Assembly: GCA_033439255.1 (NCBI GenBank)
Contig: CM065887.1
Location: 1,922,001-1,986,000, forward strand
Source of the DNA: Hericium rajendrae
Taxonomy: Eukaryota > Basidiomycota > Agaricomycetes > Russulales > Hericiaceae
Reading direction: 5' to 3'
DNA: 64,000 nucleotides
This document shows, piece after piece, positions 20,574 through 46,964 of the stretch (the first letter of the stretch is position 1; each line of letters starts with the position of its first letter). Both the position numbers and the translations under genes were made by a program. A model generated the notes under the pieces. It searched no databases. It was not told the origin of the DNA and saw nothing but the letters and a program-made list of their open reading frames with translations.

Positions 20574-21023
20574 CATCTGAGAAAAAGGATTTTTATATAG
20601 CAGCAAGTCCTGTTACAGGCCCTATCAGTGAGCTATAAAGGCTATGAAGTTGAACTACTCAGCTATATGGAGCTATGGGACCTATGATAGCCTTCATAGC
20701 ATGAAGTGTTAAATACATAGGGTGCCATAGCCTCTATAGCTAGGTGTGTCATATACATAGGACTATGATACTTACCAAGGGACACTATGACTGTTATGAC
20801 TACTATATTCATTATTGTCAGCTAGCTTGGCACTCAAGACATAGAAGCCAATTTTTTTCTTATATTCAAAATACACTACCAGATATAAGAGTACTACAGC
20901 TAATTATCTAGTAGATGACAAGTCTGGGACCAGGACAGCAGCAGACAGCTGTCACATATGATCAGGGGCAATGCGCACAGGAGTATGGCCGTGCACGGGT
21001 AAGCGAGAACCTGCGCGAGCAGG

Positions 21024-22945
21024 CTAGGGTTCGACACGAGTGCACTCGCGGGTGACCCGGATCCGAACCCGCGGGTTTTCAAGTCAGCACAAGGGCTGAC
21101 CTGGATCTGCGCGGGTTTCAGCCACCGGGTGATCCAGAGCCACGAGTCAGGTACCTGTAGCATCACGAGTCACTCGCAGGTCACTACCTACCACACGTTT
21201 CCATCCTTCTCTCTTCATGATTTCTCCTCAATCTGGCAGCGGGGAGGACTTTATAGCATCAGAGGGGCTCGAGGTGAGTCAAAAAAACAATATATTTCCT
21301 TTTTACTATAGTAATCTTGCGAGTCTCGCTCGTTATCGAGCGAGACTCGTTTTCATTGCTCTTTAATACTCGCCTACGCTCCACGGTTCATCGATATCTC
21401 GCTCGTCTTTCCGCTTTCGAAGAAGCCCAGCCACTTAACCCTCAAAAACGAGTCATATATCTCCCTCAGAACACCTACGCCCACCCCGCATGTCCGATCA
21501 GCTGCCGATCGCGTCCACTGTCTCTCGCCGGTCCGTGCGAGCAGGCCTTGCTGTTTGCGGCTCAGCAGTCCAGCCCGCCACTCATGGCAACTTATCGAGC
21601 GAGACTCGTTCTTCATTCTTATTTGACAGTCTGCCCCACCACCGTTCGACATGTCGCTCACCTCTCGCGTGTCATCCGGGCTCCTTCCCGTCATCCATGC
21701 TTCTGACAACTACCGCCAGCCTGCACCAACAACGAACTGGAGGGCAATACTTAGATCACGACGGTGAGCGCGTGCGCGTCATACGCACGCTCGACGATGC
21801 ACCTGACATACTATGCAGAATGCATTGGTGCGGTGTGCTCGGGCACCTGGAGGTCCGCGCGATGCGTCAGACGACATATTTCATGCACACAAGCATGTTT
21901 ATGGGAGGTCGGACGACGCACATCGGGCACACGAGCCATCCGTTGAGATGAACAGGTTGAGCTTCACAATGGCGAAGGTGAGTCTCATTTCTATTTTTAA
22001 CTCCCCGCATGCACTAACGTATACTGTACAAGTACCCGCACCATCATCTTGCATCCGTTACATCCCCGGCACTGCATCTTGCGGCCACACCAGCACGATA
22101 TCCCCAAGCCCTCCTTGCTCTCGACCTCCAAGCTTGCTGCGGGCTCGGGAACGACCAATACTGTGAGCGAGAGGCAACGCACGTGCAACCGCGCGTTGCT
22201 CTTCATGTGCATCTTCCTGCTGCAGCTCAGCTCGTCGAGCGCGCATGTGCTCAAGGCCTGCGCGAGCATGTCCTTATTGTCCGGTGTGACGACACCCTGC
22301 CATCCACGAATCCCCATGCTTCGTTGCCCTGCCGTCCGCCAGCTCTCCTGCACGCCCGCATGCTCCGCAACCTATACACAACATATATTCGGATTCAGCA
22401 ATGCTATGCCCATGCAGATGATGTGATTTACAGCACTCGAATTCGCCCGCGCGCAGTGGCCGTACGTGCCCGGGCCCGTGCGCTCCATGCACTGTAGTGC
22501 CATCAGCCTTGTTCGACAACCTTCCAACGCGGCGCACATGCACATATGCGGACCATCCACGACATGCTCACACAGCGGGGATCGGGTGCACTGCCTGGCG
22601 CGACTTCATCCAGAATCATGACGTTGTGTTGCCCAGGGTGAGTGACCTACGTGTCACGGTAGTAATTTGAAGGAGGCAGTGCCGTATAGTAGACATGTAG
22701 AATGGAAAGTCTGTGTATGTAGTGTACATAGTGTCCCAATAATATGTTGTTGATAAATAAACATTGGACCACGGGTTACTCGCGGGCGACTCGCGGGTTG
22801 ATGCATTTTAGCAAAGCCTTGACCTGGATCCGGACAGGTCTCAGCCACCAGGTGATCCGGATCTGTGGGTCAGGAACCCGCAGGTAAATTTCGCAGGTAT
22901 ACCTGTATCGACCTGCAGGTGACTCTGACTCGTGTCGATCCCTAG
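21024..22945. mobile_element. N1: CTAGGG-TIR element nested in E1
   Basis: Ends are CTAGGGTTCGACACGAGT and its complement with one change, flanked by the 6-bp duplication AGCAGG (21018-21023 and 22946-22951). Length is 1922 bp. Each end holds the block GGTTTCAGCCACCGGGTGATCC or a close variant; a solo copy lies at 1985-2115. The interior has a pyrimidine-rich stretch, a donor GAG|GTGAGT at 21274 and a stem-loop at 21320-21349, the same order as in E1-E4. The right arm of that stem, with flanks, recurs at about 21593-21625. GC-rich open frames follow but no transposase is recognisable. Confidence 0.8.
21320..21349 (+). other. N1 stem-loop after predicted intron
   Basis: A perfect 13-bp stem CGAGTCTCGCTCG with loop TTAT. 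It lies 46 bases after the GTGAGT donor, the same place as in E1-E4. At one stem position this copy has a C-G pair where E1-E3 have A-T and E4 has G-C. Confidence 0.75.
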
Positions 22946-24137
22946 AGCAGGCCGAAGAGTGCGCCCTGTCGGGCATGCGATTGCATGCATCGGCAGTGGA
23001 CAGCGCGCCCTTCCGAGCGTGCATGAGCAGGCACACCTGATGCGAGCATGCACACTGTGCGTGCACTCGCGTGCACTCACGCAGCCACGCTCGCGTAGGA
23101 GTGCATACGCGCACGCCCCGGGGTATGCGCGTGGGCAGTCGGGGCCCCAGTGCATACGCGGGCAGTCAGGGCCTCGGTTCTTGCATGCAGTCGGGGCCCT
23201 CGGTCCTTGCGTGCTCGCTGGACCGACCGTGGTGCGTGCGGGACGGCGTGCGCATGCTGGAGAGGCCATCCGGACCGTCTGCACGTAACCGGGACCTCGC
23301 ATGGGTTTGCGCACCGTGCGTGGTCGTGCTCGGGTGCAGGAGTGTGGGCGAGGTCACTCGCGCGTGCAGGGCCACGTGTCGTGTCCGCGAGTGCGTTGCC
23401 GACAGCGCGGGGCGTGCTGGCGCATCAGGCTATGTCGGGGGTCACACGCAAGCCTGCTGAGGATGCGCGGGGTTGACGTGGGTGTGCAAGGGGAGCAATG
23501 GGCGCAGCGGGCTGGGCAAAGGAGTCGCACCTTGTTGTCGTAGCAACGAGGGGCAGCGGCGGCGGCGGTGTCGGGAAGATGGCCGCGGTGGACTCATGGA
23601 TGTGGGCGCGGGGTGTCAGGGCCTCGCGCAGGCCTGCATACCATGCATCGTCATGCACGATCACGTGCGGGAACGTGTGCACGCGCTGGCTAGCCAGCCG
23701 CGGGTGCCACATATCGTGGCCACGAGCTCGTTGTCGACGGCCGGGACGTGCTAGTACGTGGAGGTGGTAAGGTGACAGACTTACGCACGCTGTTGAGAGC
23801 ATGTGCGAGTTGTTGAGGGGACGCGAGGGCGCGGGAGGCAGGGGAACGACGTGTCGTGGCCCATTGCCACGGCAACGAGACACGACGACACAGACGCAGA
23901 CACCGTCATCGGTGGATGGTGTGACTGGAGGCTCGCGGGCATGAGCGAGGGCGTGGGGGGTCGAAGGGCGAGTGGTCAAGGTTGCGGGCACGCGGTCGGG
24001 TCCGTGCAACTGTTCGTGACGCGCAGAGGGTCGGGGCTGGGGGCAGCATGTTTGAGAAGAGTGCGGTGAGCTGGCGACATGGCAGAGAGATGGTGATGCA
24101 GGAGGGGAGGTCGGGTGCGTTGCGGGTGTCGAAGAAC

Positions 24138-24169
24138 GAGAGTATCGCTCGTTCTCAAGCGATACTCTC
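24138..24169 (-). other. E1 stem-loop after predicted intron
   Basis: A 12-bp stem GAGAGTATCGCT with its complement, loop of 8 bases. On the minus strand it follows a GTAAGT donor at 24212 and a branch-like ACTAATA. The stem is identical to that of E2 and E3 while the loop differs. Confidence 0.75.
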
Positions 24170-24614
24170 TTTATTAGTACGAACAACAAGGATACAAACT
24201 GGTTTTACTTACCTTGTATCCCTCTACATCCCTTTGAGACCCTCCCGCATGTGATCCAATGGGTTAAAGAGAAGAGAAGCGACGGAGGAACGAGGAGAGG
24301 GGAGAGTGGTGGTAAGGATGGTATAAGAAGTCGAACTTCGACGCGCCTTCGGTGCTCCAGCTACCGAAGCGCGTGAGTTCGAACGTTTCGAGCCTAGTAA
24401 ATCAAATAAACTGCTTTAAATTCTGAAAAAAAGACGGCAGCCATAATTCATCTATTACATCGAATCATATGAGGTGAGTATCTAACTAAGCTACTATTAG
24501 CTACTGGGCAACAAACAGAACTTAGAGAAATCTGGCACTTAGCCTCTGACACGAGTGCTCGGCACCGCACGGCCCGGTCTCGGCAGCCATATTTGGCGCT
24601 CCGCTCACCACGTC

Positions 24615-24623
24615 TATATAAGG
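24615..24623 (+). promoter_or_regulatory. TATA-like box of E1 outward transcript
   Basis: TATATAAGG, in the same relative place as in E2-E4. Downstream there is pyrimidine-rich sequence, then TTCG|GTAAGTTGC near 24718-24730 and a possible acceptor TTTGTAG near 24770, followed by the conserved word TTTTCGCTTTTT. Confidence 0.55.
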
Positions 24624-25466
24624 TGTGCGCGATATGCTTCCTCTCTCTCTTCTCTACCACTACCATCTTCTGTCTTTCGTCTCCCTCTTTTCTCTCCTAC
24701 TTCAATCTTCGTATGTTCGGTAAGTTGCTATGTTGTTTTGTTGTTCACTCATCCTAATGTTCTTTGTAGACTTCATATTTTCGCTTTTTCTTTTCTTGGA
24801 TATGTTTTATGTTCTTATATATATATATCTTTTCTTTTGTCTTGTTCTAATTTATTAACTTATGTTTAGATCATGTTTTCAGTTTTTATTATCTTTGAGA
24901 TAAATCTTATCTTATCTTAGCTTGTGTTTTATCTTATCTTTTATCTTAACTAACATAAGTTAATTATAAGTTACTATCTATTATAGTGTATTGTAGTTTT
25001 GTATTGATATGTTACAATTAGATATTGTTTATAATATAATGCTTTCAGATTTTCGATGTTTTGAGTGCTTCAGATAGAATAAGACAGATTTATAATATAT
25101 ATATATATATATATTTTGATACATCTATAGTACTTCTGAGTGATATATTTGACAGAGATGACATAGAGTAGATAGAAATCTGAATAGCTAGATATAATAT
25201 GATAGTAAAGATATATTATATAGCTGATATAGCTCTCATAGCTATCTCATCCTATGGTAGCTATAGTAGCTATGATAGCTTATGCTCTATACTATGACAA
25301 CTATAATAGCTATGATAGCTACTGCCTTATACTATGATAGTTATGTAGCCCTATATAGATTACCTTGCTACTATAAGATGGCTATGAAGAAAAGGGGACT
25401 GCTATGACCCTATCAAAACTATGTAGACTACATAGTGCAATATACCTCTGGTGTTTTTCTCAGATG

Positions 25467-26599: not shown

Positions 26600-26829
26600 C
26601 ATCTGAAAAACTTACAAGTGGTACATAGCTCTATGAAGTCTACATAGATTTCATAGTTCCATAGCACTGCCCTTTTCTCTGTAGCCCACATAGCTAAAGG
26701 GAGATGCTATATAGTGCTATAGAGCTCAAGGGGGATGCTATGAAGTGCTATCATAGCTATGAGAGCTGACTATGCAGCTATGATAGTATGGCTAGCTATC
26801 AAAGCTATAAGTATCTATGAAAGCTATAA

Positions 26830-26955
26830 GGCTTATATGTCTTATATATTCTATACTCAATATATGTCTCACATATCCTACATTCAATATGTGTCTCACA
26901 TATCCTATATTCAACATGTGTCTTACATATCTTATATTCAATATGTAGACCTGAT
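26830..26955. repeat. 27-bp tandem repeat in E2
   Basis: About four units of ATGTGTCTCACATATCCTAT plus ATTCA. The same array is present in E3 at 37370-37490 but not in E1 or E4, so E2 and E3 are the closest relatives. Confidence 0.8.
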
Positions 26956-27042
26956 ATATATATTGAAATCATAAAATCTATTAGAACTATAAATCTTTTC
27001 CATAGTCATATCAGAATTAATAACACATGATCACACAAATAT

Positions 27043-27465
27043 TGTCAAGACTCGGTCGTAGACAGCAGAGAACCACCCAAGTCACCAGCGATGATGGGAG
27101 TGAGAGAGCAGAGAGCGACTAGCAGCGCAGTGACCTGTATTGGAGGTACAGTACGGTACAGACGAAATGGACAATCTAGGGAAATAGGCAAGCAACAGGG
27201 AGCCTATAAGTACTGGAACGACAATGGGAAAAGAACAATGGACACCATAATGGGTTGAACAATAGAGTGAGAACAATGGTGGCCAAAAGGAGAACAATGG
27301 GAGGGAGAACAATAGGATGTCCCAAAGGAGAACAAGGGCATGGGTGAAGGATAGCCCCAGGTCATGTGAGGAAGTGAGCATGTGATGGGGCTGCTGGAGC
27401 ACATGACCGACGCGATGCCTTGATGGCAGAGAAGAAGGCGGAGAGAAATGGAGCGATCCGTGACA
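27043..27465 (-). repeat. LTR of the Ty3-type element (left in window)
   Basis: It begins TGTCAAGACTCGGTCG and ends GATCCGTGACA. The match to 33705-34127 is almost perfect; I noticed one substitution by eye. Confidence 0.93.
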
Positions 27466-27479
27466 TCACCCCCTCTCTA

Positions 27480-30400
27480 AGACGCACTTTCGCCTGGAGT
27501 GCGTGATGAGCATGGACGGGGTCGAGGTAGATGAGTCCACGAAGATTGGGAGCCTTGAGTGCATGCGGATGGCAGGTGTAGAAGTCGGTAATTGCACCAT
27601 GTGCATTGGAAAGGGAGGTACGCGAAAGCCACTGATTCTCCGAATCAGGGTAGCCTGCCCATTTGACAAGATATTCAATGCCGCGTTTGTTCCGGGTGAG
27701 ACGAGCATCGAGGACAGACTCAACTTCATACTCTTCCTCACCCTCCACAAGGTCAGGTGGTGGTGCAGGGAAGTTGGGACCATGAGCGTCGGTTTCCTTG
27801 TAAGGGGACAACAGGGACGTGTGGAACACCGGGTGGATACGCCAGGTGGGCGGTAGCTTCAGTCGATAAGAGACTGGGCCCAGGACATCAGTGATTTCGA
27901 AAGGTCCCAGGCGTCGATCAGCAAGCTTAGCTTTGGGTCGTGTGGTTTTGATGTTCTTGCCATCGAGCCAGACCTTGTCACCAACCTGGAAGTGGATGGT
28001 GTCGTGCATATGGTCCTGGTTGTTGCGCTTCATGAGATCAGCAGCTGTTTGAAGGCTGGCCTGGACCTCAGTGCGAAGTTGTTCGAGATGACAGAAACGA
28101 TCCTCGACAGCGGGTGTAGATGATGTGGGGTTGACAGTGGGGATGGCAGTGGGAATATAGCCGAGGAGCATTTCAAATGGAGCTCGGTTAGTGGCGCTGT
28201 GGATACGGTGGTTGTGCGAGAACTCAGCGTAAGGGAGCCATTGGACCCAATCATCCTGACAGTAGTTGCAGAAGGTGCGAAGGAACTGCTCGAGTTCTTG
28301 ATTGACACGTTCTGACTCGCCGTCGGTCTGTGGATGATAGGCGGTGCTGAGGGAGGACTTGATACCAAGTTTGTCAAAGACGTCACGCATGACTTTGCCT
28401 GCATACTGTGGGCCACGATCAGAGATGAGACGTTCCCAGAGGCCATAGTTCCGATAAATCCTGTCAAAAAGGATGTCGACTGTGCCATCACTGGTAATGG
28501 TCTCTTTACAAGGAGTGAAGGAGACGTGCTTTGTAAAACGGTCGACGACCACATTGATGGAGTCATAGCCTTGGCATTCTGGGAGTTTGACGATGAAGTC
28601 TGAGGTAATGTCTTGGAAAGGACGGGTAGGGATGGCATTGGGAATTGTTTCAACATGAGGGCGGTGATTTTGAACCTTGGTGGCCTGGCAGGTAGCACAG
28701 CCATCGACATAATCACGAACGAAGACAGACATACCGGGCCACCAGTAGTTGCGACTGAGGAGCTCGTAGGTCTTGTAGCGTCCGGGGTGACCAGCCATGG
28801 GAGTGTCGTGATGCAGCTTGACGATATCTCGACGAAGGTCCTTGTCAGCAGGGATGTAGACTTTGCCACGAAAGAGGATGAGGCCATCCTCGTAGTTCCA
28901 TTCTTGGAGGTTCTTGACGAGGGAGCGAGGACCGTTGTTCAGGATCACGTCAAGGGCTTGAACGACCTCAATATCCTTGGTCTTGGCATTGCGAATGCGT
29001 TGGCGAAGATCAGCATTGCCAATGGATTTGACAGCGGCTGGATGTGTAGCACGAATCTGGAAGTACTTGGGGTCGAGGAGGACACGATCTGAGTTGTCGT
29101 CGTCCACCCCCTCTCTATGGTCAGGTCGTCTCGACATGGCATCTGGCCGGTGATGAATACCGGGTTTGTGGATCAAGGTGAAGTCGAAACGAGTGAGGAA
29201 GAGAGCCCAGCGAGCCTGACGACGACTCAGCTTTTGGGCAGACTTGAAGTATTCCAGGTTCTTATGGTCGGTCCAGATCTCCACAGTATGGGGAGAGCCT
29301 TCCAGGTAGTGGCGCCAGGCTTCGAGGGCACGGATGATGGCCAGGAGTTCCTTGTCATAAATGTCGTAGTTGCGTTCAGGGGCAGTGAAGGCCTTGGAGA
29401 TGTAAGCAACAGGGTGCCATTGCTCGTCCTCCCCGCGCTGGGATAGGATACCTCCTGTGGCATAGTCTGAGGCATCGACCTCAACCAAGTAGGGTTTGGA
29501 TGGGTCAGGCATGATAAGGACTGGGGACGAGGTGAACGCAGCTTTAAGAGCCTCAAAGGCATGTTGACATTCAGCAGACCAGGCCCAAGGATGGTCTTTC
29601 TTGGTAAGGTCAAACATGGGACGGGCGACTTTGGAGAAGTCCTGGATGAAGCGTCGATAGAAGTTGCCAAAGCCAACAAAGGACTGGACGTCCTTGACGT
29701 TACGGGGGGCAGGCCATTCAGCGATGCCTGCAACCTTGACGGGGTCCATGGCAAGCGTGTTATGGGAGACGATGAGACCGAGGAACTCAACGGAGGGCTG
29801 CTCGAAAGAGCACTTCTCTGGTTTGAGGAAGAGGTCATTGTCCTGGAGGCATTGGAGGACCTTGCGCACAAGGTCGCGATGTTCTTTGAGGGTTTCGGTG
29901 AAAATGAGGATATCGTCCATGTAGATGACGACTTTGCCCGTGTCGATGAGATCCTTGAAAAGTTCATTCATCATTCCTTGGAACGTGGCAGGGGAGTTTG
30001 TAAGACCAAAAAACATCACCAGGGGTTCAAAGAGACCGCGGTTGGTTTTGAAGGTGGCTTTCCATTCGTCGCCCTCCTTGATGCGAACGTTGTTGTAACC
30101 CCAATGAACGTCCATCTTGGAGAAGACTTTGGCACCCTTGAGCTTGTCAACGAGTTCAGAGATGAGGGGCAGGGGATATTCATTCTTGATGGTGCCCTTG
30201 TTGAGGGTGCGATAGTCCTGGACGGGGCGTAGTTTTCCATCTTTTTTCTTGATAAAGAAGAAGGGACTCGCCATAGGGGATTTGGAAGGACGGATGTAGC
30301 CTTTTTTGACCTGGTCATCAAGGAACGAATCAAGGTCCTCCTGCTCAGTGGGAGCCATGGGATAGACCTTGCATGAACGGGGTTCGAAACCATCTTTCAG

Positions 30401-31452
30401 GTCGATGGCGTGATCCCAAGGGCGACGTTCAGGAAGGCGATGGGAGGATTCCTCATCGAAGACGGGTTGGAAATCCTGGTACTGAGGGGGAACCATCTCA
30501 GCAAAGGACTTCTCCGCAACATGGGCGGTCACACGCTCAGCCAGTTTCTGAGCATTGGACGGATGGTATGTTGGTAGTCTGGGTCGTCGTCTGGAGGGGG
30601 TGGTGTGTCCCAGTCAGGGAGAACACCAGCTAGGCGAAGACCCTCTTCAACCCAGTCATCATCGACGTTAGGTCGCGGGTCATCATCCTCAGTAAACAGA
30701 CATGCAGGGACTTTGGACAGGTGGATGCGGCGAAGACGGACACCTTGGACTCGGCAAGCAGGGATCATGTATTTGGGAAGTGGGGCAGGAACAAATGGCG
30801 GGGGCAGTGGGAGCAATGGAGGGGGACAAGGTGGGGGGAGCAGTACAGCAGCAGTACTGAGGACTGGTGGACGAGGGGCTGATTGGCGGTGTTCTGTGCG
30901 AGTGGACAGGTTTTTGACCGGGGGCTTATTCAGGGTGCAAGAGGGAGGGCAGCGAGTCATGTCAACACGACGAGAGACCCAATCAATTTCAGGGTTGTGT
31001 TCCTGTAACCAATCGGTCCCAAGGATAATGTCATAGTCGCCAATATCAACGAGATAGAACTCAGCTGTCTCCTCATGGAAGGACGTCGAGTCCTTGGCAT
31101 AAATGCGGATGTTCTGGTTGACTGAATAGCGGACCCAGCCCATGATGTTTTCGGAGTTGTCCACGTTGCGAACGGGAAAGGGTTTAGGGAGTTTCTTGAG
31201 GGGGAACTGGTGTTTCTTGGCAAACTCGGGGTGTATAATGATGCCTTCTGCACCACTATCAAGAAGTGCCTCAGCGTCAATTTGTTTCTTGATCGGGGCA
31301 GTGATAATCTTGGCCTGGAGCATAATGGATGGTGTCTGACGGTTGGGTGTGATAGCGGACATGCGCAAAGACGATGGATACGATTGCTCACAGGGGTCGG
31401 ATAGTACAGAGAAGCAATTCGACGGATCAAAGAAATGTTTCTTGCCACCCAC
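27480..31452 (-). other. pol region of the Ty3-type element (fossil)
   Basis: It carries protease, reverse transcriptase, RNase H, a zinc-binding integrase and a chromodomain, in the order typical of Ty3/gypsy. The chromodomain at the C-terminal end is the usual targeting module of chromoviruses. Confidence 0.9.
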
Positions 31453-31479
31453 GGACGACGTGACTGGGGGGCACTTTAA

Positions 31480-32465
31480 AAACCCTCAACCATATCCTTT
31501 AATGCAGCCTTTGCCTCTTCCCTCTCTTCCTCGCTCAAGTCCTTCAACTGCGACGATAAGTCGGCGATGGACCTGTTGATGGCGGGGACAGCGAGGGCGG
31601 CGGCTGCATCTTCTGGAGCTACTCCCGGGGCAGAGCCGGTTTCTAGCGCTCGGACACGAGGGGTTGGGGCACGGGGGTTGGAGTCGGCATTGAGGGGGCA
31701 GTCGCGGAAGCCATGGCCCTTCTGGCGGCAGCGGAAGCAACCGCCCTCATGCCTGAGGCGCTCACGGTCAGGCTCCGAGAGTTTGGGCAGTGGGGCACCT
31801 GTAGCAGCGACTGTGCGGGATCAGCCAGTAGATGTGGACTGAGGGGAGCGAGTGCTCACCGGGGTGCGCCCAGTTGTAGGGCAGGGACTCTGGAACCGGG
31901 TGCGCATGAGGTAGGCAGCATTCCTGTCACGGGCCCTCGCCTTCCACTCAGCCAGGGTGGTGGGCATGGGGTAGCTGCGCTGGCAATCATCGTGCAGGGC
32001 GCTGTTGAGGCCATGCAGGAACCAGTCGATCAGGGCCACGTCATTGTAGCCGGTGCGAGGGGCGAAGGACTCAAACTCGGTGATGTAGTCGACTACCAGG
32101 CGCGTACCCATCTGGAGGGTCTGAATGGCATGGGAGGCATCCTTGGAGTCGTCAAGGGGGGAGAAGTCCAAGTTGAAGCGAGTTCGAAGGGCGGTGAGGT
32201 TGGCGTAATGGGGAACATGAGCTGGAGATGTGTTTGCAGCCACGAGATCGTCATCCTCAAGGATCTGCTCGACGCGCTGGGTGGCCCACTGGCCAGCGAT
32301 AGGGCCCTGGCAGAGGTCGAGGAAGAGGGAGATCTGGGCGGTATCATCTTGATACCTGACAGAATTGGCGCAAAGGAATAAGCGAATACGCAGCTGGAAT
32401 TCCTTGGACTTGGAACGATCTCCCTCAAAGGGAGCAGGTTTGACGCCGATCTCAGGGTTGGACAT
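31480..32465 (-). other. gag region of the Ty3-type element (fossil)
   Basis: It shows the retrotransposon Gag core with a tryptophan-containing helical region and a zinc-knuckle-type segment near its end. It lies upstream of pol in the element's own direction. Confidence 0.75.
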
Positions 32466-33704
32466 GTCGATGGATGGCTGAACAGGGGGAGCTGTGGTGA
32501 TGATTGGTTTGACGTTGACGGTGGATGTCGATGCAACAGTGGCAACGGGTGGAGCAGGTGAGGGGACTGGTACTGCAGTAGGCGTCGAAACAGGTGGTGG
32601 TAGTGGGGCCCGAAGGGTATCGAGGCGGGTAGCTTGTTGCTGAGCGAGATTCTCTATAACTGCTTGAGAGAGTGCGAGTTCTGCAGTGGTTAAGAAGAGG
32701 GTACTGGCCTGCCAAAACCACAGGTCACTTTCTTCTACGAGGCTGGGTCTCCAACTGACTACAAGCCGATTGGTGTCGGAGCGGTATGCGTAGTAGTTGT
32801 TGGTTACCGGGTTGAAGGTAATACCTGGGGGAACAACAAGTGGGGTGGTGCGAGCAGGGGGAGAATCTGCACTAGGAAGGGCGACGGTGGGAAGCAGCGG
32901 GGTCGCGGGGTGTTGGCGGCGGTGTTCTGTAGCTGCGACGTCGAAGTCGTTAAGCTCGAGGTCTGCCTGGTCGTCACGATCAGCGAAGTACCACTGTGCG
33001 GGACCGTCGTCATCCTCGTCCGGAGTGACGAAGTCTATTCGAACGATGCCAGAAAGGGTGTAGATAAAGTATTCGTCGAGCGAGGCAAAGACGCCGAGTG
33101 GGTATGGTTCTGTGGTCTGGAAGCGGGGGTCGGTGGAATCAATGGTGAGGTTTAGAAGAAGTCAGCCGCGACTGGGCGACGACCAAGAGCACAAGGGTAC
33201 AGGGGGTCCGAGTACGAGTTTCTGAGGAATCGGTGGCCAAGGCGTTCTCTGGCCCACACAGGCTCAGGCGAGGGTTCGGGGGTGAAGAGACCTAGTGTGC
33301 AAAAGGGGAACGAGGTCGATGGTAGGATACTTGCAGGGGATCCTCGGTTGGGTTGGCGACAGTGGTAAGCGATATCCGAGGCACTGAACGTGAATTCTTG
33401 CAAGTCGATGTCAAAGGAAACTCGAATTCGAACGTATAAGGCAATGGAGATAGCACCTGCACGTGGTTTCCACGACCTCAATCGAAACCAAACTCCTTCG
33501 GCTTCCCAACGCTTCACAGCACAATAGCGGAGGAGGGGGATGAGTGCACTGCCCTCGATGGTGTTGGCGATGGGAAAGGGGAGATGAGGTTGATGGAATG
33601 GATGTCGGGATTCGGTGAAGATGTCGGTGGTGAAGGGTTCAAAGAAGAAAGGTATGATGGGCGATAGTAGGGAGGTGAGGCGGGTGTATGAGAGATTGTC
33701 CAGG

Positions 33705-34620: not shown

Positions 34621-34629
34621 CCTTATATA
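34621..34629 (-). promoter_or_regulatory. TATA-like box of E2 outward transcript
   Basis: TATATAAGG on the minus strand, conserved in place in all four E elements. It is followed leftward by GCTCGCACGATGCGC and CTCTTGCTCTTAACCCC. Confidence 0.55.
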
Positions 34630-34855
34630 CGAAGCTCGGGTGGAGCCAGGATTTGACGCTTGCTGAGCATCGTGTCAGAGACTGGCGCCAGACTTAACTA
34701 AGTAGATTTTGCTACACAAGGATGCAACGTATAGTAAATGGCTCGAAGTCTCACTAGTTTTGATTGTATGTACAATAAATAGTTGTCCTCTTTTTATTTG
34801 AATTTATACAATTTTATTAACTTAGTGGGGGCTCGAAATCTAAAGCTTCGACTCG

Positions 34856-34876
34856 TTCGGTGGCTGAAGCACCGAA
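34856..34876 (+). other. Small conserved hairpin in E2
   Basis: TTCGGTG, a 7-base loop GCTGAAG, then CACCGAA. Sister copies are at 38350-38370 (E3), 24358-24378 (E1, with a changed loop) and 45323-45343 (E4, imperfect). Confidence 0.7.
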
Positions 34877-35018
34877 CCGTGTGTCGAAGTTTGTCTTGAC
34901 TGTCTTCCTTAACCACTAAGTACTCCTCGTTCACCCTCTCTCCTCTGTCCTCCATCCTCTTCTCACCCCGTAGGATCAAAGACCAGAGGAGGTTAGTAGG
35001 ATAACGAGGGCCTAAAAG

Positions 35019-35064
35019 GTGAGTAAAAAAAAATGTGTTGATTCGTTCATTCATGCTAACTCAG
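35019..35064 (+). other. Predicted conserved intron in E2
   Basis: Donor GTGAGTAAAAA, branch point TGCTAAC and acceptor TCAG, 46 bases in all. E3 (from 38508) and E4 (from 45467) show the same spacing. The acceptor abuts the long hairpin. Confidence 0.65.
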
Positions 35065-35093
35065 AGAGTATCGCTCGTTCAAGCGATACTCTC
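35064..35093 (+). other. E2 stem-loop after predicted intron
   Basis: A 12-bp perfect stem GAGAGTATCGCT with loop CGTTCA. It would be the first sequence of exon 2 of the rightward transcript. Confidence 0.75.
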
Positions 35094-36584
35094 GACTTAC
35101 CTCCCCCTTGCATGCCCCTCCTTTCTCTTGCCACCACATCGTCGACTCACCCCCCGACATCACCGCCATTCCCACAGGGGCTGGCATGCCATCTCCAACG
35201 ACCGCGACCGCGTGTGCTGGCACATGCACACCGCGGGATGACGTGTACACGAGCCCACTGCCCTCCCGCATGCTGCCCTCCTGCATGCTGCTCTCCCACA
35301 CGCCACCCTCCTGCACGGCCTTGCTGTCCCCCATCCCACACTGTACCTGGTGTACGGGCAAGCCATGCCATGTGCAGCCTTGCCGTCTCACGCAGGGGCC
35401 GACGCGTTGCGCGCGACCCTGCCATGGTCTGTGCACACGGCCAACGGGATGGGCATGCATGCGCACATGTCACCCATGGCCTGCGCAGGTGCGCCGCAGT
35501 CTGATGCCACATCGGGCCTCATGCTGCCCTCCCGTGTGGCCAGTGTGCCTCGTGCGCAGGCTTGCCGCATCGTGCATGGGCCTGCGGCAGCACACCGACA
35601 TCCTGGGTATTCCTAGCGCCTCCGACATGCAGGCCTGCTGCGTCGTGCATGGCCTCTGCACCCTGTCCCAGCCTCATGCCCTGTCTGGTCCTCCTGCACC
35701 TCACGCACGGGCCCGGCACTTCAACTGCTCGCGCACGAGCCTGGGGCCTCGTGCACATCCACCATGCATCGTGCCATCCCTCCAACGCATTGTGCACGGG
35801 CCGACATCCAGTGCCATTTTGCTCACGTTGCCCGTGCCTCAACTCGCCGTGCCACCCGCACGTCCTTTGCGCCTCATGCGCATCCCTTGTGCCTCATGCA
35901 CAGGCTCCCCGTGCCTCACGCACATCCCTTGTGCCTTGCATATGCATCCGGGGCAGCAAGGCACCCTGCGCATGGGCCTTTGTGCCTCGCACGTGCCCTA
36001 TTGCCTCGCGCACAGACCCTACGGTCCCGCAGGAGTTCACAGCAGCCCCAGCACCTCGCGCACAGTCCGTGCTCTTGCGCACAGGCCCCGCCAGCATGTG
36101 TGCTCCCGTGCATAGCCCCGGGGCTTTGCATGCCACATCGCACGCACCAGTCATGCCCTTGTGCGCATGCATGCCTTGTCACACTGTGTGGGCGTGTGTG
36201 TGATGTAGTATACTTGATTGTAGTAGTAGTTGAATTTAATCGAATTTGACCTGTTTCAAGTATAGTCAGCTCGAAATCAGAGACTCTATACCAATTCAGA
36301 TCTTATAGCAGCCTGAGAGTTCATAATAACCTTTGGAAGCTCTGTATGAAACATAGTATTCATAGCATACATAGAGGGAAGCTCAAAATACATAGGTTAC
36401 ATAGCAGGCATAGTAGTGTTCTATGACTATATAATGCTACATACCTATCACCTATAACTATGATAGCTATGATAGCTACCATAGTCCTGTATAGCTGTGT
36501 GGCCAAACTACATAGCAGCCATAGCACTATGAAATCAGACATAACATTGGCTGGCAGCTATGTAGATTTCACATTTTTCAGATG

Positions 36585-37123: not shown

Positions 37124-38105
37124 CATCTGAAAAATTTGCCAGCGATACATAGCTCTATAAAGTCTACATAGATCTCCTAGCTTCATAGTATCGCCCTTTA
37201 TTGTATAGCCCACATAGCCAAAGGGTGATGCTATGTAGTGCTATGAGGCTCAAAGGTGATGCTATGGAGTGCTATGGAGTGCTATCATAGCTATGAGAGC
37301 TGACTATGTAACTATGATAGTATGACTAGCTATGAAAGCTATCAGTATCTATTAAAGCTATAAGGCTTATGTGTCTTACATATCTTATATTCAATATGTG
37401 TCTCACATAACCTATATTCAATATGTGTCTCACATAACCTATGCATAATATATGTCTCACATATCCTACATTCAATATGTGTCTCATATATTTTATATTT
37501 TATGTGTAAACCTGATATATATATTAAAGCAATAAAATTTATTAGAACTTTAAATTTTTTCTACAATTATATCAAAATTAATAACATATGGTCACACAGA
37601 TATAAAGTATTTCAATGCATCAAGATTATATTGATATAATACAAACACTACTACTAACTAAAAAGTAAAAATATAAGTAAGAAAATAAAATACAAGATAA
37701 GATAATGCAAGAAGATAAGATATGATAAGAAGATAAGATAAGATAAGATAAGTAAAAGAATATAAAAAAACTAAGTAAGAAAAGATAAGAAAAAGTGAGT
37801 CTTAGAAGATAAAGATAACACATAAGAACTTACCAAAAGTAACAAAAAGCGAAAATCTCAAAAACTAACTTAAAGACATTAGTATTAGTATAAGCAATAA
37901 GAGATCAACAATTAAAACATTACCTTAGAGATAACAAACGAGCAAGAAGTAACAACGAGCGAGCAAGGAACAGCAACAAGCGAGCAAGGAACAGCGACAA
38001 GCGAGCAAGAAACAACGACGAGCGAGCAAAGAACGTCGACGAAGGCATCGACGTGGCAAGAGACAGTGGGGGTTAAAGAGCAAGAGACAACGCACATCGC
38101 GCGAG

Positions 38106-38114
38106 CTTTATATA
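38106..38114 (-). promoter_or_regulatory. TATA-like box of E3 outward transcript
   Basis: TATATAAAG on the minus strand, in the same place as in the other copies. About 180-200 bases downstream a CTAAG|GTAATG donor (near 37925) and ACTAATAC branch-like word suggest a spliced leftward transcript. Confidence 0.5.
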
Positions 38115-38549
38115 GGAATCCTGGGCAAAGCCGGGATTCGCGGCTGTCGGGCGCTTGCCGAGCGTCACGTCGAGACTGGGTGCCAGACTTCACTAGACGG
38201 ACTTGGCTCCCTGTGAACTTCACATACAGTAGATACTTATAACGCTCATTCGTTCGAATTGTATATACAATTTATAGTTATCTTGTTTTTTTCTGAATTT
38301 ATGTGATTTTATTTGATTTGTAGTGGCTCGAGGAACGTACCTTCGCTCGTTCGGTGGCTGAAGCACCGAAACACGCGTCAAAGTTCGTTTTCCTCCCTGT
38401 CCCTACCACCTTGACTGTCCTCCCTCCACTCTCCACCCTCCTTCTCTTCCTCTGACTCGTCGAACCGCATGCCGGAGGGACTCGGTAGGATGCAGAGGGC
38501 CGCGATGGTGAGTAAAAAAACTTTCTATTTCGTTTCTTTGTGCTAACGT

Positions 38550-38581
38550 CGAGAGTATCGCTCGAACAAGCGATACTCTCG
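38550..38581 (+). other. E3 stem-loop after predicted intron
   Basis: A 13-bp stem CGAGAGTATCGCT with its complement and loop CGAACA. The stem matches E1 and E2; the loop differs. Confidence 0.75.
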
Positions 38582-40205
38582 ACTTATTTTGTCCTCCCGT
38601 GCCCTCATCCCCCCTTGCCTCCGACTGCCACCCCTCCTGCATCACCCCACCCTCCTTTGACCTCGCCGCCTTGCCGCCATGTCACGAGCACCCGGCGCGC
38701 CGTCTCCAACGACCACGACCATGCCCTGGCACACGCACATCGCGCAGACAACGCGCACGCGAGCCCGCCGCCTTGTCCATGGGCTCTGCCCTTCCCGCAT
38801 GGCCCCTGGTCCCGTGTCCAACATTGTTGGCCAGCGCACGGGCCAGCCACCCTGTGCGCAGCCTCCCCATCCCGCGCAGGGTCCCACGTGTTGCACGCGA
38901 CCCCGTCGTGGTCTGTGCGCACAGCCAGCGGGATGGGCGCGCATGCGCGCACGTCGCCCATGACCGTGCGCAGTCGTGTCGCAGCCCGACGCCTCCTCGC
39001 ATGCACGGTTACCGTGCCGTGCTAGTGCGCCGTGCATGGGCCCGTGGCAACACACCAACGTTGCCAGCACACCGACGTTGCCAGCCCGCCGACGTTGCCA
39101 GCGCACCGACGTCGCCAGCCAGCTGACGTCGCCAATCCGCCAACGTCGCCAGCCAGCCTCGCGTCTCCAGCGCGCAGGGCTGCTGTGTTGCCATGGCCTC
39201 CGTGCCGTGTTTCAGCCTCCTGCATCCCGCGCATGGGCCCAGCACAGGTCCCAGGCCTCGCGCGCGCTCGCCACGTCTCGTGCACACCCGCTACGTCTCG
39301 CGCCTCACGCACAGGCCCGCCGCCTGTCGCCCCTTATGCACATTCCCCGCGCCTCGCGTATGCGCCCATGGCAGTGCGCCGTCCCGCGCATGGGCCTTCG
39401 CACCTCACGCACACACCCTACGGTCCCACATGAGTCCGCGCCAGCTCAGCACCTCGCGCACGGGCTCGTTCCTCCACGTTTCCAGCGCGCAGTGCGCGCT
39501 CATGGGCCCCAGGCTTCGGACATGACCATCGCGTCTTGCACGCAGCGTCACGCACACCAGCCGTGCCCTTGTGTGCACGCACACCTGCCAGCACGTGTGT
39601 CAGCCCCACCTATGGCATGTTGTTTACAATGTAGTATACTTGCATGTATCAGTCGTTTGATATAAATAAATTTGACCTGATTTCTAGCACTCAAAACCAT
39701 AGACTCTACACCAACTGCAGATATTATAGCAACCTGAGAGTCCATAGTAACCTTGGAGGCTCTGTATGGAACATAGTATCTATAGGATACATAGAGGGAG
39801 ACTAAAAACACATAAGTTACATAGCAGGCATAGTAGTGTCCTATCACTATGTAATACTATATACCCATCACCCATGACTATGATAGCTATGATAGCTACC
39901 ATAGTCCTGTATAGCTGTGTGGCCCAACTACATAGCAGCCATAGCACTATGGAATCAGGAATAGCATTGGCTGGCAGCTATGTAGATTTCAGATTTTTCA
40001 GATGTAAGCTAACGAAGGTGCACAACACCCCAGGTGGCAGGGAAAAAAGTGTACAAATCAAGGCATCACACAATGGCAGGGCTGACATGGGAGCGAAGGA
40101 GGATTAGATTGTGAAAGGGGATTAGATTGAGGAGGACAGAACCACTGGCATGAAAAAGGCAGCGGTGTAGTGTGGGGATGGTTCAAGCAAGCGTGGAGTC
40201 AGCAT

Positions 40206-42471
40206 TCAAGCGAAAAATTTGGCCTCCCAGTAGCCCGGGCAGGCACCTTGCCATTCCAGATCCTGCTTGAGCTTGGCGTTATGGTGTAGGACCATCTCAT
40301 CCAGGAAAAATGTGTATTTGTCAGCCCGCATCTTGGAGCACATCGGGTGAAATTTTCTGAACCAGTTGTTGGTCTGCTTGGTGACGGAAGTATTGAACCA
40401 CCACTTGCTCTTGCTCTGGGGGTCTTTGTTCTGCAATTTGTGGAAGGCAGTCAGATTGCAATGGCTCAGACACCACACGTGCTTCTTAGAGTGCTTGCAA
40501 AAGTAGTGGAAGACATCCACCGTCCAGGCGATGCCGAACCACTTGGCAACTCCCTTAATCATCTTAGACAGCATGCAGGCATTGTTGTAGCATATGTGGT
40601 TGGGTCATGTCCAGGGGTCTGGATAAACATGCTCAATCATCTCCTAAATTATCATCAGCATGGGCAAGGGCTAGAGGGTGGGTAGTAAACACACTCACCA
40701 GGACGGCACTCAGGGTCTCCGCATGGAAGAAGGTCTCCTGGGCGATGATCATCCCACAGCAGGCGACAAAGAGCTGTTTGTTGTGAGTCGTCCTGTGTTC
40801 AAACTTGGCTTTGATCTTCTTATGACCCTCCTCTGGCTTCCCTTGCTGATCTAAGCCTGCGAACATTCCGTCGCCTGTAATGTAGAACTCCTGCTCATGC
40901 GGAATGCTGTCGCCTCCATCAAGATCATCATGTGTTCCGTCATCCGCTTCTGCATGGATGGACGGAAAGGAGCTGGGATGCGCAGCCCTTTGAGCCCAAA
41001 GTGCCACTCTAAGTTGGGGGGCAGCAGCCCCGGTCTGCAGGTGTCGCTCCTCTGTTGCCATGTGTAAGGGGTCATCACACGACTTCATGCCGAGGTGGAC
41101 GGGCCAATCGCACTTGTCCACAGAGCATATGGTCTCATGGCCCTTGTGTAAAGGGCAGAAGCAATGGCAGTTGTTGTCCAGAGGCACGGTGCATGGCGTT
41201 AAGTCCTCACCCAGGTAGGCACAGCACGGGCGACCGACACAGATGCTGTCAATTATGATCATAGACATCTTCACTAGGCCCAAAGTTGTTTCAGACCCGG
41301 CACGGCTTCTGGGGTGGAGAACAAACTCACCCGGCCCTGCAGCATTGGGCTGGTGCCAGTGAGTGCAGCGATTGCAGAAGTGAGACTGTTCGGCTTGACC
41401 AAGATGGGAGATTCTGGCATTACGAGCCTGCATGGCTGCCATAAACTGGTCCCTCTGTGAGCCATCTGGGACACGGAGGGTCGAGCCCTCTCGTTTGCAA
41501 TCCTCCAGCAGAGAGAGAACGATGAAGCCATCCCAGATGTGGTCTGTTTGGACGTTCGGTGAGGGTTTCCACAATGGATCCCAATTGTCCCAGAGTCATG
41601 AGGTTTCATTGTAAATGTCAGCGGAGCCAGTTGCTGATGTCCTGGATCATGGTGAATAGACAGTTGGAGCGCTATTGACATCGTCGGAGCAGGTCCTTAC
41701 CAGTTTCTTCGCATCTGTACTATCCACGTCTCTACCAACTGGTGCTCGGCATAGTGATGTTGGCCAACTTGGATATAGTCTGGGATGACATTGCAATAGT
41801 AGATCTGCTCTCTACCTTTTACGCAGTAATTATGATAATATGTGGTGTTGCATCCTGGGTACAGAATCAGTATGGTCTTTACACTGCCCCATCGTGCCAG
41901 GTACCTTTGCAATAGGTGCATGCAGTCCATATCGGCAGGACACCCTGACCAACTGTGAAAAGGGCAGCCTGGGTTTGCTCCACCTTCTTCAGTGGGAGCC
42001 GGGAATGCATGCAGCCGGGAGAATGACAAAAGTTGCTCGGCAGGTAGAGGGTTCTGTAGGCTGGGACGATTTCTCAGTGGACTGTCGAACAAGAACTAGG
42101 AGCAGACGTACTCATGCCCACGGGATGACTATGTTTTAGGAATAGCTTGTGTAGAAGTTCCGAACATAATTTGGGATATGCCCAGATTGATTCGCGCAGC
42201 AGCGTCCAGCACAAGTGCACTTGGATAGGCCGCAGATTGCACATGCCAACCAAAAAGTGCTCGATGGATGGCAGTAGTTCCTCAGGTGGCGTATCGATGC
42301 CGTGGGTTGTGGGCTGTGGGAGCAGGATGTCCTTCTTCTCGGCATAGCAGAGTCGGTAGAACAAAGTCAGCTGCTCTATGTGAACATTCTGCAGCTCTGC
42401 ATGGAAATCCACCAAGTCACTGAGATACCGTAAGGAAACCATGGCAATGGACAGAGCACTGCTGCAGGCCA
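40206..42471 (-). pseudogene. CxC5/CxC6 cysteine-cluster protein with KDZ-transposase-like C-terminus
   Basis: Minus-strand exons match the fungal CxC5/CxC6 proteins associated with KDZ transposons. Visible in order are MACSSALSIAMVSLRYLSDL and HIEQLTLFYRLCYA (N-terminal helices), a CxC5-like part with CHSPGCMHSRLPLKKVEQ and NTTYYHNYCV, TDHIWDGFIVLSLLEDCKRE, a CxC6-like part with VGRPCCAYLG, CHCFCPLHKGHETIC, DKCDWPVHLGMKSCDDPLHM, and the C-terminal domain with HNKQLFVACCGMIIAQETFF, VDVFHYFCKHSKKHVW and MRADKYTFFLDEMVLHHN. Introns of about 50-90 bp separate these. A TGA interrupts the frame after YPDPWT in the last exon, so the copy may be inactive. It is on the same strand as the KDZ transposase and TET/JBP genes about 6-11 kb away. 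Confidence 0.8.
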
Positions 42472-44114: not shown

Positions 44115-45090
44115 CATCTGAGAAATTTCGGGTAGCTATAGAGAGCTTTATATCTTATATAGATTGCATAACTCCATAGCTACCCTCTTTTGTATATATC
44201 TGGCCATAGAGAGCTCTAGTCTATATAGTGCTATATAGCTATTAGGGACAGCTATAGAGTGCTATGATAGCTATAGAGCTACAAGGGTAGCTATGATAGC
44301 TATAGAGCTATAGGCTTAGCTATGAGAACTATGTAGTCTAACTCTGCTACAAAGACTACAAAGTCTATATTAATGCTATGCTACCTCACTATATATTATC
44401 TGTATACTATAAAGCTTACCTTGTCTATACTATACTAACTCACTATGTACTATCTATAAAATATACATTTATCATATAAATTTGTAGCTCAACTAGAACA
44501 TAAAACTTTATTATAGCACAATACAATTAAATTCATCACAACAAAAGTTAAGCACAAAATCAAATTTTATTTACTAACTATAACATCATAATACATTACT
44601 ACACTACATTATATAGAATAGAGATTAAGACAACTTCTATAAAGATATAAGCATTAGTCAAGACTAACATAAAAGACTACAAAAAGCGAAAATCTAATTA
44701 AGAAAAGAAAACATTAGCATTAGAATATAACAAAGATAACACATGAAAGCTTACCAAACTAATAAAAAAGCGAAATTCTAAAGACAGCATGAAGACATTA
44801 GTACATGACATGATACAAAGCTTATCTAGTAGAGCTACAATAGTAGTGTAATAAGTATAAAGATATTAGTATAAGCTGTAAGAGACTAAGAGTAAAAGCT
44901 TACTTTAAAAGAAATAGCAACGACGAGCAATAAATAACAACAACAGAAAGAGCGATGCCAACGATAAAGAGAGCAATGATGACGATGAGCGAGCGAACGA
45001 CGACGACAAGTGAGCGAGCGACGACGACGAACGTGCCGATGTGGCAAGAGATGGGGGTTAAAGAGCAAGAGGGAAGGCGCGTCGCGCAGG

Positions 45091-45099
45091 CCTTATATA
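45091..45099 (-). promoter_or_regulatory. TATA-like box of E4 outward transcript
   Basis: TATATAAGG on the minus strand, preceded in the element by TCCCGGGCGAAGCCG. Position and orientation match E2 and E3. Confidence 0.5.
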
Positions 45100-45511
45100 C
45101 GAATCCCGGGCGAAGCCGAGAATTGTAGCTGCTGGGCGTTGCCGAGCGCCGCACCAGGGACTAAGTATTAGATTTTGATATCTTAACTCTGCTGTTCAAT
45201 AGTATATGTTAGGCTTGTTATAAAGATAGCTCATGTTATGTACTGAGAGACAATATTTGTAGCTCGTGTCTTTTTTCCGTATTTTCTGCTGTTTTATTTG
45301 ATTTGTTGTGTCTCTTCACACATTCGGTGGCTGAAGCCTCGAGTGAACGCATCGAGACCTCCTCCCACCACTCACTCTTCTCCGTGTTTCCTCCCTCCAT
45401 CCCTCTTCTTTCGTTATCGAGCATCAAGACAGAAGGATTGGGTTTGCAGCAGGCAGAGGATGGCAGGTAAGTAAAACGAGTTTTTTAAATCATTTCTTTG
45501 TAACTAACACA

Positions 45512-45539
45512 GAGTGTCGCTCATTTTCGAGCGACACTC
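45512..45539 (+). other. E4 stem-loop after predicted intron
   Basis: An 11-bp stem GAGTGTCGCTC with its complement and loop ATTTTC. Compared with E1-E3 both arms have changed together at one position (A-T to G-C), keeping the pairing. Confidence 0.75.
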
Positions 45540-45859
45540 GGTTCTTTCGACACCCCCATGCCCTCCGTCGACACCTCCATGCCTCCCGTCACCATACCAT
45601 GTCCCCGTCGCCCCCTCCGCCTTCAACTGCCCCCTCCGTCTTCTCAATGCTGCTGCCAACACCTCCGGTTGCCCGCTCGCGCAACCCCAACATCCCACGC
45701 CCGATATGCCACAACAATCGCGGCCCGCTCCCCACTTTTGCGTGCCCGGCCATGGATTACGCCCACCGTGACACACCGTCTGCATGTCGTCAACGACATG
45801 TGCACGCGGGCCACGTCACGGCCTGTGCTATCGACGTCCGTGCGTACCTGTGCCGTAGA

Positions 45860-45883
45860 GTCCCGTTGCCATGGCAACGGGAC
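45860..45883. promoter_or_regulatory. Perfect 24-bp palindrome with an X-box-like core in E4
   Basis: The core GTTGCCATGGCAAC matches the X-box consensus bound by RFX-type winged-helix proteins. The matching place in E1 (23851-23886) keeps an imperfect palindrome around CATTGCCACGGCAACG. Binding is inferred only. Confidence 0.4.
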
Positions 45884-46964
45884 TTGGACGTCGTTCGTGC
45901 CCATGGCCTGCAACTCCGCACATTCGCCCCATGCCCCACAAAGGCCCGCACTCGCAGGTAACACCGTGCACGCTCGCAACGCCTCGCAACACCCCGCCGA
46001 CGTGCACAATGCCCCACGCTCGCGTACAGCACCTAGCATACGTGCCCCGCAGCCCCGCATGCATGCCTCAAGCCCCGCGCTCATCCCTCATGCCCCGGAT
46101 ATGGGTACAGCAGCCCGCGCTCATGCATCACGGCCAGTCCGGGGCTTGGACACACGTGCTCAATGCCCCGCTGCGTTCATACCCTACGCCCCAGATGCAC
46201 CACAACATCCCACTGCGCACAATGCCGTGCGCTCTCCCGCAGCATCCCTCACACACGCATGCCCTCTTGCTCCCGGTCCGCATGCCCCGGGCTCGACACG
46301 CCGCATGCATACATGCCCCGCGCACTCAATGCTACACGCACGTGCAGACTGCCCAGCACGACCGCGCGATACCCCGCATCTGCATCTAACACCCCGCACT
46401 CCTGCACCATCCCGCACGCCCGTGCAACGCCCTGTTCTCGTGCACTATCCTGGCGCCCGTGCGTCCCGCCGCATGCGCATACATCATCGTATTCGCGCCC
46501 TCTGCACCTGCGCGCTTGACAAGCGTCGACGCGTGATGGCGCTTAATGGCACCGGTGCCCGTGCCGGCTCTCAATATAATTAGAACTTCTAAATCTTTGT
46601 ACTAGAGCAGTCATGACTTGTATAATAAAGTTGAATTTGATTTACCTTTTGTGTGCATTATATGACATGTATACTCTGGATAATGTGTATACTTGCTGTA
46701 TATCTCATAGATGTCATAGCATATAGCTTACACTTACAAGACTCTATAGTTGACATAGGCTACATAGGCTCTATAGCATGTAGAGATGTGTCTATAGCTC
46801 TCATAGCTATGCTCAGTAGCTATATAACATACATAGATGGCATATAAGGCTATGTAGTCTATATAGCTACTATAGAAATATATATCTGTATAAGGCTTGT
46901 ATATAGCTCATATAACTTAGATAATTATGGCTGGTAGCTATATAAATTTGGACTTTCTCAGATG

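Follow-up and report, generated by a model that had tools for sequence, protein, structure and literature searches.

A 64,000-nucleotide stretch of the basidiomycete Hericium rajendrae (assembly GCA_033439255.1, contig CM065887.1, positions 1,922,001 to 1,986,000 of the forward strand; in the following the window) contains four large elements with terminal inverted repeats (TIRs), E1-E4, which share CATCTGARAAA ends, subterminal repeats and an internal plan and in which no transposase is visible. The locus raises the question which enzyme moves such elements and what their common interior represents. From the sequence features described here it is likely that E1-E4 are part of a non-autonomous cut-and-paste group of the Plavaka type (CMCT) and that this group carries a spliced, probably non-coding transcription unit. 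The evidence consists of the ends, the target duplications, one empty site, Plavaka relatives with near-identical ends, and conserved signals and palindromes in the interior. The superfamily is ordinary once Plavaka has been recognised, and a very abundant repeat of this genome gains with it a superfamily and a testable partner; the scale of the family and its conserved gene-like interior are unusual.

Ends, Target Duplications and Family Size

E1 (20574-25466, to which no single strand is assigned), E2 (26600-36584, + strand), E3 (37124-40004, + strand) and E4 (44115-46964, + strand) possess perfect TIRs of 13, 11, 12 and 11 bp, respectively, and lie at exactly the positions that had been predicted for them. 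Their flanking dinucleotides AC, TA, TA and TT match in all four cases as 2-bp target site duplications, and no match reaches 3 bp. Allowing for at most one mismatch, CATCTGARAAA occurs ten times in the window compared to 2.3 expected occurrences. The predicted AGCTATGATAG-like subterminal zones of E1-E4 are real in terms of word density, with the words CATAG, CTATG, ATAGCT and AGCTAT found at 45.7 per kb in the outer 350 bp vs. 3.8 per kb inside (20 elements). The predicted size of 2.85-2.97 kb without nested insertions does not apply to E1, which is 4.9 kb long and composite, because it contains two opposed copies of the internal unit (21273, + strand, and 24213, - strand); E2 reaches 10 kb because a Ty3/Gypsy element is nested in it at about 27040-34135.

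The genome comprises 46.8 Mb in 19 contigs; contigs or chromosomes are termed C1, C2, etc., and stretches read around family or Plavaka matches carry L-numbers. Genome-wide, the exact end CATCTGARAAA is present 1033 times (501 and 532 by strand), compared to 24 times for the reversed control pattern, by which the further copies anticipated in the original prediction were found. Matching dinucleotides flank 24 of the 26 end pairs read, i.e., E1-E4, 17 of 18 facing pairs on chromosome C1 (20 regions) and three of the four pairs in L010, L011, L012 and L002. The unmatched pair on C1 is L018, the right end of which sits in a repeat common to L018 and L023. These counts omit L020 (right end not covered), L025 (outward ends) and L003 (no end matched), and an element with CATCAG end in L046 is counted apart; the pairs are partly dependent, as L024, L035 and L036 have a common flank motif and are probably not independent and the right flank of L023 is the shared repeat. 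L070 and L074 resemble a single insertion within an inverted duplication. Ends prefixed by TA number 113; a count by eye among the first 100 of these gives at least 28 TA/TA pairs that face each other at less than 10.5 kb, in most cases at 2.7-3.2 kb. From the 140 AT-prefixed ends no pair count was derived because many of them belong to one duplicated composite repeat. A composite repeat with an E end and a shared flank is present in several copies (L018:5036-6494, L023:3836-5294, L020:1-62), and therefore the ATCATCTGAAAAA sites are not all independent insertions.

Besides TA, the target dinucleotides include AC, TT, CA, TG, GA, CT and others. An empty site, as sought in the original prediction, is provided by L046, which holds an E-like element flanked by TT on both sides, and its uninterrupted sister copy L039, which lacks the insertion and aligns to both L046 flanks with an overlap of exactly 2 bp; alignments to L014, L043 and L044 end within few bases of the insertion junction. 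Copies, duplications and empty site confirm that E1-E4 belong to a TIR family that is very large and non-autonomous and makes 2-bp duplications, and they support the earlier view that its enzyme is encoded elsewhere. No earlier description of the family was met in an open-access literature library, in a search that was not exhaustive.

Relationship to Plavaka Elements

CA..TG termini and 2-5 bp duplications are described for Plavaka/CMCT, and for PlavakaB CATCA..TGATG ends with 2-3 bp duplications (Kojima, 2025; PMC12730594). The E family, with its CATC..GATG ends and 2-bp duplications at the 24 pairs mentioned above, falls within the wider description; with regard to the PlavakaB ends, E1-E4 carry CATCTGA, while the E-like element in L046 ends in CATCAGAAAAA, which equals the published CATCA. 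This L046 element is related to E2 and E3 and, over 264 bp, shares 88% identity with the beginning of E2.

The genome itself encodes Plavaka transposases, with 132 matches to the profile PF18759. The ends of these elements were defined by comparing near-identical copies: L047 and L050 share 99.8% identity, and the alignment between them stops exactly at TTTTCCAGATG. The pattern CATCTGGAAAA occurs at 201 genome sites vs. 17 for the control, and among the first 100 of the 201 sites at least five intervals between facing ends enclose a Plavaka match (16.1, 12.4, 12.4, 12.4, and 9.05 kb). Four of these five are flanked by duplications (AG, TG, TC, CA) and the fifth by AG and CT. In the subterminal zones of these elements CTACAGTAGC-like words recur, which correspond to the AGCTATGATAG-like words in E1-E4. 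Additionally, there are short CATCTGGAAAA elements of 3.3-3.7 kb, one end of which differs from the autonomous Plavaka ends by three and two of 51 bases in two comparisons, whereas the other end is similar to the autonomous one; matching dinucleotides are present at six of the eight short pairs read. In two CATCTGGAAAA elements (L059/L060 and L068/L069) the flanks are TAG and CTA and thus match in inverted and not in direct orientation. A Plavaka element of L040 (100-500 and 7100-7213) has a CATCAGG right end, tandem copies of a different palindrome, CACGAGAACGAGC..GCTCGTTCTCGTG, in its left part and CATCTGAAAAA itself in its right subterminal zone.

Regarding the transposase, the E elements carry none that was detected, as expected for non-autonomous elements. 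No Pfam family was found in eight frames of E1-E4 or in three frames of longer elements, PF18759 has no match in the window among the best candidates listed, and a tblastn comparison with two Plavaka proteins yielded no match in the window or in L017-L036 (L020 left out). The longer autonomous relative with CATCTGARAAA ends that the original prediction proposed to look for was not found in the parts of the genome examined, and none of the Plavaka stretches scanned is enclosed by such ends. Among seven frames of at least 200 codons from C1 elements compared to Pfam, Copia pieces were found in L020 and nothing in L017, L021 and L024. L020 was considered as a transposase-bearing E element and rejected, as its flanks AT and TG differ, it has Copia pieces inside and its left flank is part of the repeat common to L018 and L023. 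The E-like sequence that occurs inside L046 and next to the Plavaka genes in L045 and L048 was considered as a second Plavaka gene and turned out to be E copies. A fragment in L020 (3968-4654, - strand) has five uninterrupted relatives of 64-66% identity (C4, C8 twice, C9, C2) outside the Plavaka match list; we take it to resemble a CACTA-like transposase, for which there is no such Pfam match.

Non-autonomous CACTA/EnSpm elements have subterminal repeat zones and short duplications and are mobilised in trans. E elements share the repeat zones, the short duplications and, probably, the mobilisation in trans; unlike CACTA/EnSpm in the strict sense (CAC.. ends, 3-bp duplications), E1-E4 end in CATCTGA and show 2-bp duplications. 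Tc1/mariner elements use TA targets only, in contrast to the diverse dinucleotides of the E family. Compared to PlavakaB (PMC12730594), the likeness lies in the 2-bp duplications, the CATC..GATG ends and the transposase-bearing relatives in the genome with CATCTGGAAAA ends and subterminal repeats; the differences are that E elements show no transposase, mostly end in CATCTGA rather than CATCA and carry a palindrome unit not seen in the autonomous stretches examined. The original prediction had left the superfamily open, and by ends, duplication size and subterminal repeats the family resembles the Plavaka (CMCT) elements of the same genome; it behaves like a non-autonomous family on the Plavaka side of CMCT and very probably is one.

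Mobilisation by another superfamily such as KDZ is very unlikely, even though KDZ is also abundant in this genome (172 matches) and KDZ-associated domains adjoin E3, since the E family makes 2-bp duplications, while 7 bp (Kyakuja) and 8 bp (Zisupton) are published for KDZ (PMC12730594). It is also scarcely credible that the elements are immobile and that their copies were spread by segmental duplication: L018, L023 and L020 indeed share sequence beyond the end and L024, L035 and L036 have a common flank motif, but flanks otherwise differ, dinucleotides match at most pairs and an empty site is seen.

A Conserved Internal Unit

The shared internal plan that had been predicted holds for a promoter-intron-palindrome unit, whereas the GC-rich stretch that follows aligns within subfamilies only. 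The unit and its palindromes are new beyond the original prediction. It comprises, in this order, usually a TATA box and then leader, splice donor, branch-site motif and a palindrome, termed H1. When E3 is compared to other subfamilies, one stretch is common and the next 0.9 kb match within the subfamily only. An alignment of 13 diverged units shows islands at CTTATATA, at a stem-like TTCGGTGGCTGAAGCACC, at GGTRAGTAAAA, at CTAA and at the palindrome; the rows were picked by a pattern with donor and palindrome core, and the TATA box, CTAA and the stem-like word lie outside that pattern. The model R1 matches the unit in 19 of 20 C1 regions (all but L020), 13 of which were not used in building it. 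The word TTATATA is located 391-417 bp upstream of the donor in 14 of 20 C1 units (one with a second, nearer copy) and 373-408 bp upstream in four of five window units, compared to one of 20 and none of 20 equal-sized control stretches.

In E3 the TATA box TTATATA (38108-38114) lies 399 bp upstream of the donor GGTGAGT (38507-38513), and H1 (38548-38583) with its 15-bp stem directly follows the branch-site motif GCTAAC. E4 contains the TATA box at 45093-45099, the donor GGTAAGT at 45466-45472, H1 in a GAGTGTCGCTC variant at 45512-45539 and a second palindrome, H2 (AGTCCCGTTGCCATGGCAACGGGACT), at 45859-45884. E2 has its TATA box at 34623-34629 and the stretch from donor (35018) to H1 (35064-35093) at 35018-35093; all of these are on the + strand. 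The first E1 unit (21273-21349, + strand) comprises donor and H1 (21320-21349, GAGTCTCGCTCG variant) without a TATA word being found, and the second (24138-24213, - strand) has its donor at 24213, H1 at 24138-24169 and the TATA box at 24615-24621.

Within the range of C1 and C2 over which H1 sites were listed, three short CATCTGGAAAA pairs hold one H1 each. These elements, chosen for containing H1, show GGTGAGT, CTAATC and the palindrome in the same order as the E units, and therefore elements with Plavaka-type and with E-type ends have a common unit. The exact form of H1 is absent from the two Plavaka intervals within the range of this listing (C2:25000-37414 and C1:626169-635219), and among 14 Plavaka stretches (L037-L050) R1 matches in L045 and L046 only, where E copies lie beside or inside a Plavaka element. 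The unit is thus common to E-type and short Plavaka-ended elements, and the autonomous elements examined are without it.

Palindromes H1 and H2

H1 follows the branch-site motif by few bases. The loose pattern GAGTNNCGCTN{3,12}AGCGNNACT has 342 and 348 matches by strand and none for the control; as the pattern is its own complement, this corresponds to about 345 sites. Of 29 listed H1 sites on C1, 16 lie between facing ends (less than 8 kb on each side), compared to 0.7 for random positions (maximum 5) and 2.9 for local shifts (maximum 9). The free positions are complementary at all 52 listed sites (29 on C1, 23 on C2), one pair being A-T in 42, G-C in five and C-G in five cases and the other T-A throughout. 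In 24 H1 rows, mostly picked by a pattern that fixes the central pairs, 90.8% of the cells are paired and 17 cells show double changes, above all 500 shuffles; H1 of L018 (reverse strand) adds two more compensated pairs. When folded as RNA, the H1 stretches of E3, E4 and L062 perform better than each of 200 shuffles.

H2 (AGTCCCGTTGCC..GGCAACGGGACT) was found by a perfect-stem scan 298-410 bases after the donor in eight of 28 units, and a palindrome at 651 in L025 is different from it. Genome-wide there are 112 H2 sites vs. none for the control. Its free pairs are Watson-Crick pairs at 43 (C-G or T-A) and 39 (G-C or A-T) of 50 listed sites, the rest being one-sided changes. Rfam gave no match at E up to 1 in the window region 20000-47500.

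Putative Splicing and the GC-Rich Tail

The first AG is only few bases from the branch motif and the next AGs lie within H1, after which the median distance to the first AG is 107 bases in 19 units (range 20-317). Over the 300 bases that follow H1, the same 19 units contain 109 AG, while about 182 are expected by base composition, and 174 GA. AG is below expectation in 18 of the 19 units and above it in the first E1 unit; the units are related and no control region was scanned. In L021 and L045 a normal CAG follows H1 at a distance of about 20 bases. By its sequence the H1 region looks like an intron in which a hairpin sits at the branch site and AG is excluded from the zone behind it. Introns that combine AG exclusion zones with distant branch points are known (PMC1431707); the E unit would share with these a branch-site motif followed by an AG-poor stretch before a putative acceptor and would differ by a conserved palindrome at the branch site and by being carried by transposons. 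The internally symmetrical stwintrons of Hypoxylaceae (PMC8469720) are likewise fungal introns that occur in repeated copies and are symmetrical inside; in their case the repeat consists of the intron as such, whereas in the E family the candidate intron is part of a TIR element.

For the tail, a coding reading was considered and is not supported, as no Pfam family was found and no codon phase is clear in five pairwise comparisons (most uneven 20/34/37 and 34/31/18). Seven of 20 tail gaps are multiples of three, and the longest sense frame is reached by at least five of 200 shuffles in every tail, E4 being the extreme (5/200). Pack-type elements are also non-autonomous TIR elements with variable GC-rich interiors; in contrast, the interiors of E3 and E4 match family members only among the best 40 candidates scored, which leaves a parent gene possible.

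Between E4 and its closest copy, L010, there are 115 differences in 2840 sites, which are transitions throughout, in both directions, and 108 of which are in CpG; the rates are 0.09 and 0.08 in two tail segments compared to 0.002 over the first 500 bp and 0.000 over the final 350. As the two are nearly identical outside CpG, the E4 insertion is young. In E4 vs. L011, 88 of 134 transitions are in CpG, while in E3 vs. L002 and E4 vs. L012 the CpG share is lower and the tail is not faster than the head. CpG decay was considered as the general cause of the fast tails and rejected, as it fits E4/L010 and partly L011, whereas E3/L002 and E4/L012 do not fit; it is visible in the tail of one young pair and does not explain all tail difference. 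Ends, promoter, splice signals and palindromes, in contrast, persist across subfamilies with non-aligning tails. The E4/L010 pair is a case of strong CpG decay in a repeat; according to Kojima (2025; PMC12730594), hypermutation is not detected in Agaricomycotina.

Proposed Mechanism and Alternative Explanations

In the mechanism that we propose, a Plavaka transposase supplied by other elements would recognise the CATCTG-type ends and the AGCTATGATAG-type subterminal repeats, excise the element and insert it at many different dinucleotides, which are duplicated, as the duplications and the empty site indicate. Each element would bear a transcription unit with TATA box, a leader of about 370 nt, donor, branch-site motif and H1, followed by an AG-poor stretch, in some cases H2, and finally a GC-rich tail, for which no coding signal was detected. 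RNA polymerase II would transcribe this unit, H1 may fold in the RNA between branch point and acceptor and thereby shift splicing to a downstream AG, and the product would presumably be non-coding. Going beyond this, we tentatively suggest a mobile non-coding RNA gene, an extension that we regard as possible though on balance improbable: several hundred non-autonomous Plavaka-type elements with at least two kinds of ends would carry one conserved, intron-containing unit with a selected intronic hairpin, and the RNA or its spliced transcription would aid persistence, e.g., by open chromatin or by countering silencing.

Several observations weigh against a Plavaka-mobilised family with a spliced unit. 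Two of the 26 CATCTGARAAA pairs and three of 13 CATCTGGAAAA pairs are without matching dinucleotides, the usual E end CATCT departs from the published PlavakaB CATCA at the fifth base, no autonomous element with exactly CATCTGARAAA ends was found in the parts of the genome examined, and none of the 28 TA/TA pairs encloses a listed Plavaka match by eye. Transcription and splicing are deduced from motifs, and the TATA word is missing in the first E1 unit and in six of 20 C1 units, while L029 is without a donor. The leader stem near 38350, at the TTCGGTGGCTGAAGCACC word, has no folding advantage over shuffles, of which 25 in 200 are as good. With regard to H1, to the selection of the 24 rows is added that two of five pairing measures on them are not above shuffles (233 and 320 of 500), and copies with broken stems exist, several of which are decayed, largely at CpG. 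The longest sense frame exceeds the approximate dinucleotide-shuffle mean in 15 of 20 tails, and a weak coding tendency in the tails is not excluded.

Two other explanations concern the interior. Within the same superfamily, the unit could be a relic of the transposase gene from an autonomous, unseen element with CATCTGARAAA ends, its promoter, leader and intron being kept by descent and not by selection. Non-autonomous transposons are commonly deletion derivatives, the unit resembles the 5' part of a gene and the autonomous partner is unseen; yet the exact H1 is absent from both Plavaka intervals of the H1 listing while present in three short CATCTGGAAAA pairs of the same stretches, R1 matches only L045 and L046 among the 14 Plavaka stretches (the left halves of the 12-16 kb elements lying outside the reading), the TATA box, donor, branch motif and H1 are kept while the aligned parts of subfamilies are about 65-80% identical, and H1 and H2 show double changes, which makes a relic rather doubtful. 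That the palindromes act as DNA, either as a symmetric protein site or as an extruding cruciform, and not as RNA hairpins, we regard as unlikely: H1 is often perfect as DNA and its free pairs show no one-sided change at the 52 listed sites, but the arms are separated by a variable stretch (matched lengths 25-31), which is unlike a fixed dimer site, donor and branch motif precede H1 in constant order and AG is depleted behind it in nearly all units. Under the reading preferred here, a Plavaka-type group with a spliced unit, transposase-less elements can keep promoter, intron signals and paired palindromes even though their subfamilies differ at a fifth to a third of the aligned bases. If the unit is indeed transcribed and under selection, a DNA transposon mobilised in trans would rely on its own RNA, for which we know of no clear precedent.

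Neighbouring Sequences in the Window

The long terminal repeats of the Ty3/Gypsy element within E2 are near-identical, which points to a recent nested insertion; 300-bp blocks of them were reported as 100% identical and are not letter-identical. Clusters with the KDZ-associated domains CxC6 and CxC5 are located at 40633-42092 and 49803-50585 (both - strand), with a KDZ domain match farther on, and E3 and E4 adjoin these clusters or sit between them. At 18684-19115, within a long open frame that adjoins E1, a 138-bp unit is repeated three times in tandem, the copies being 63-100% alike.

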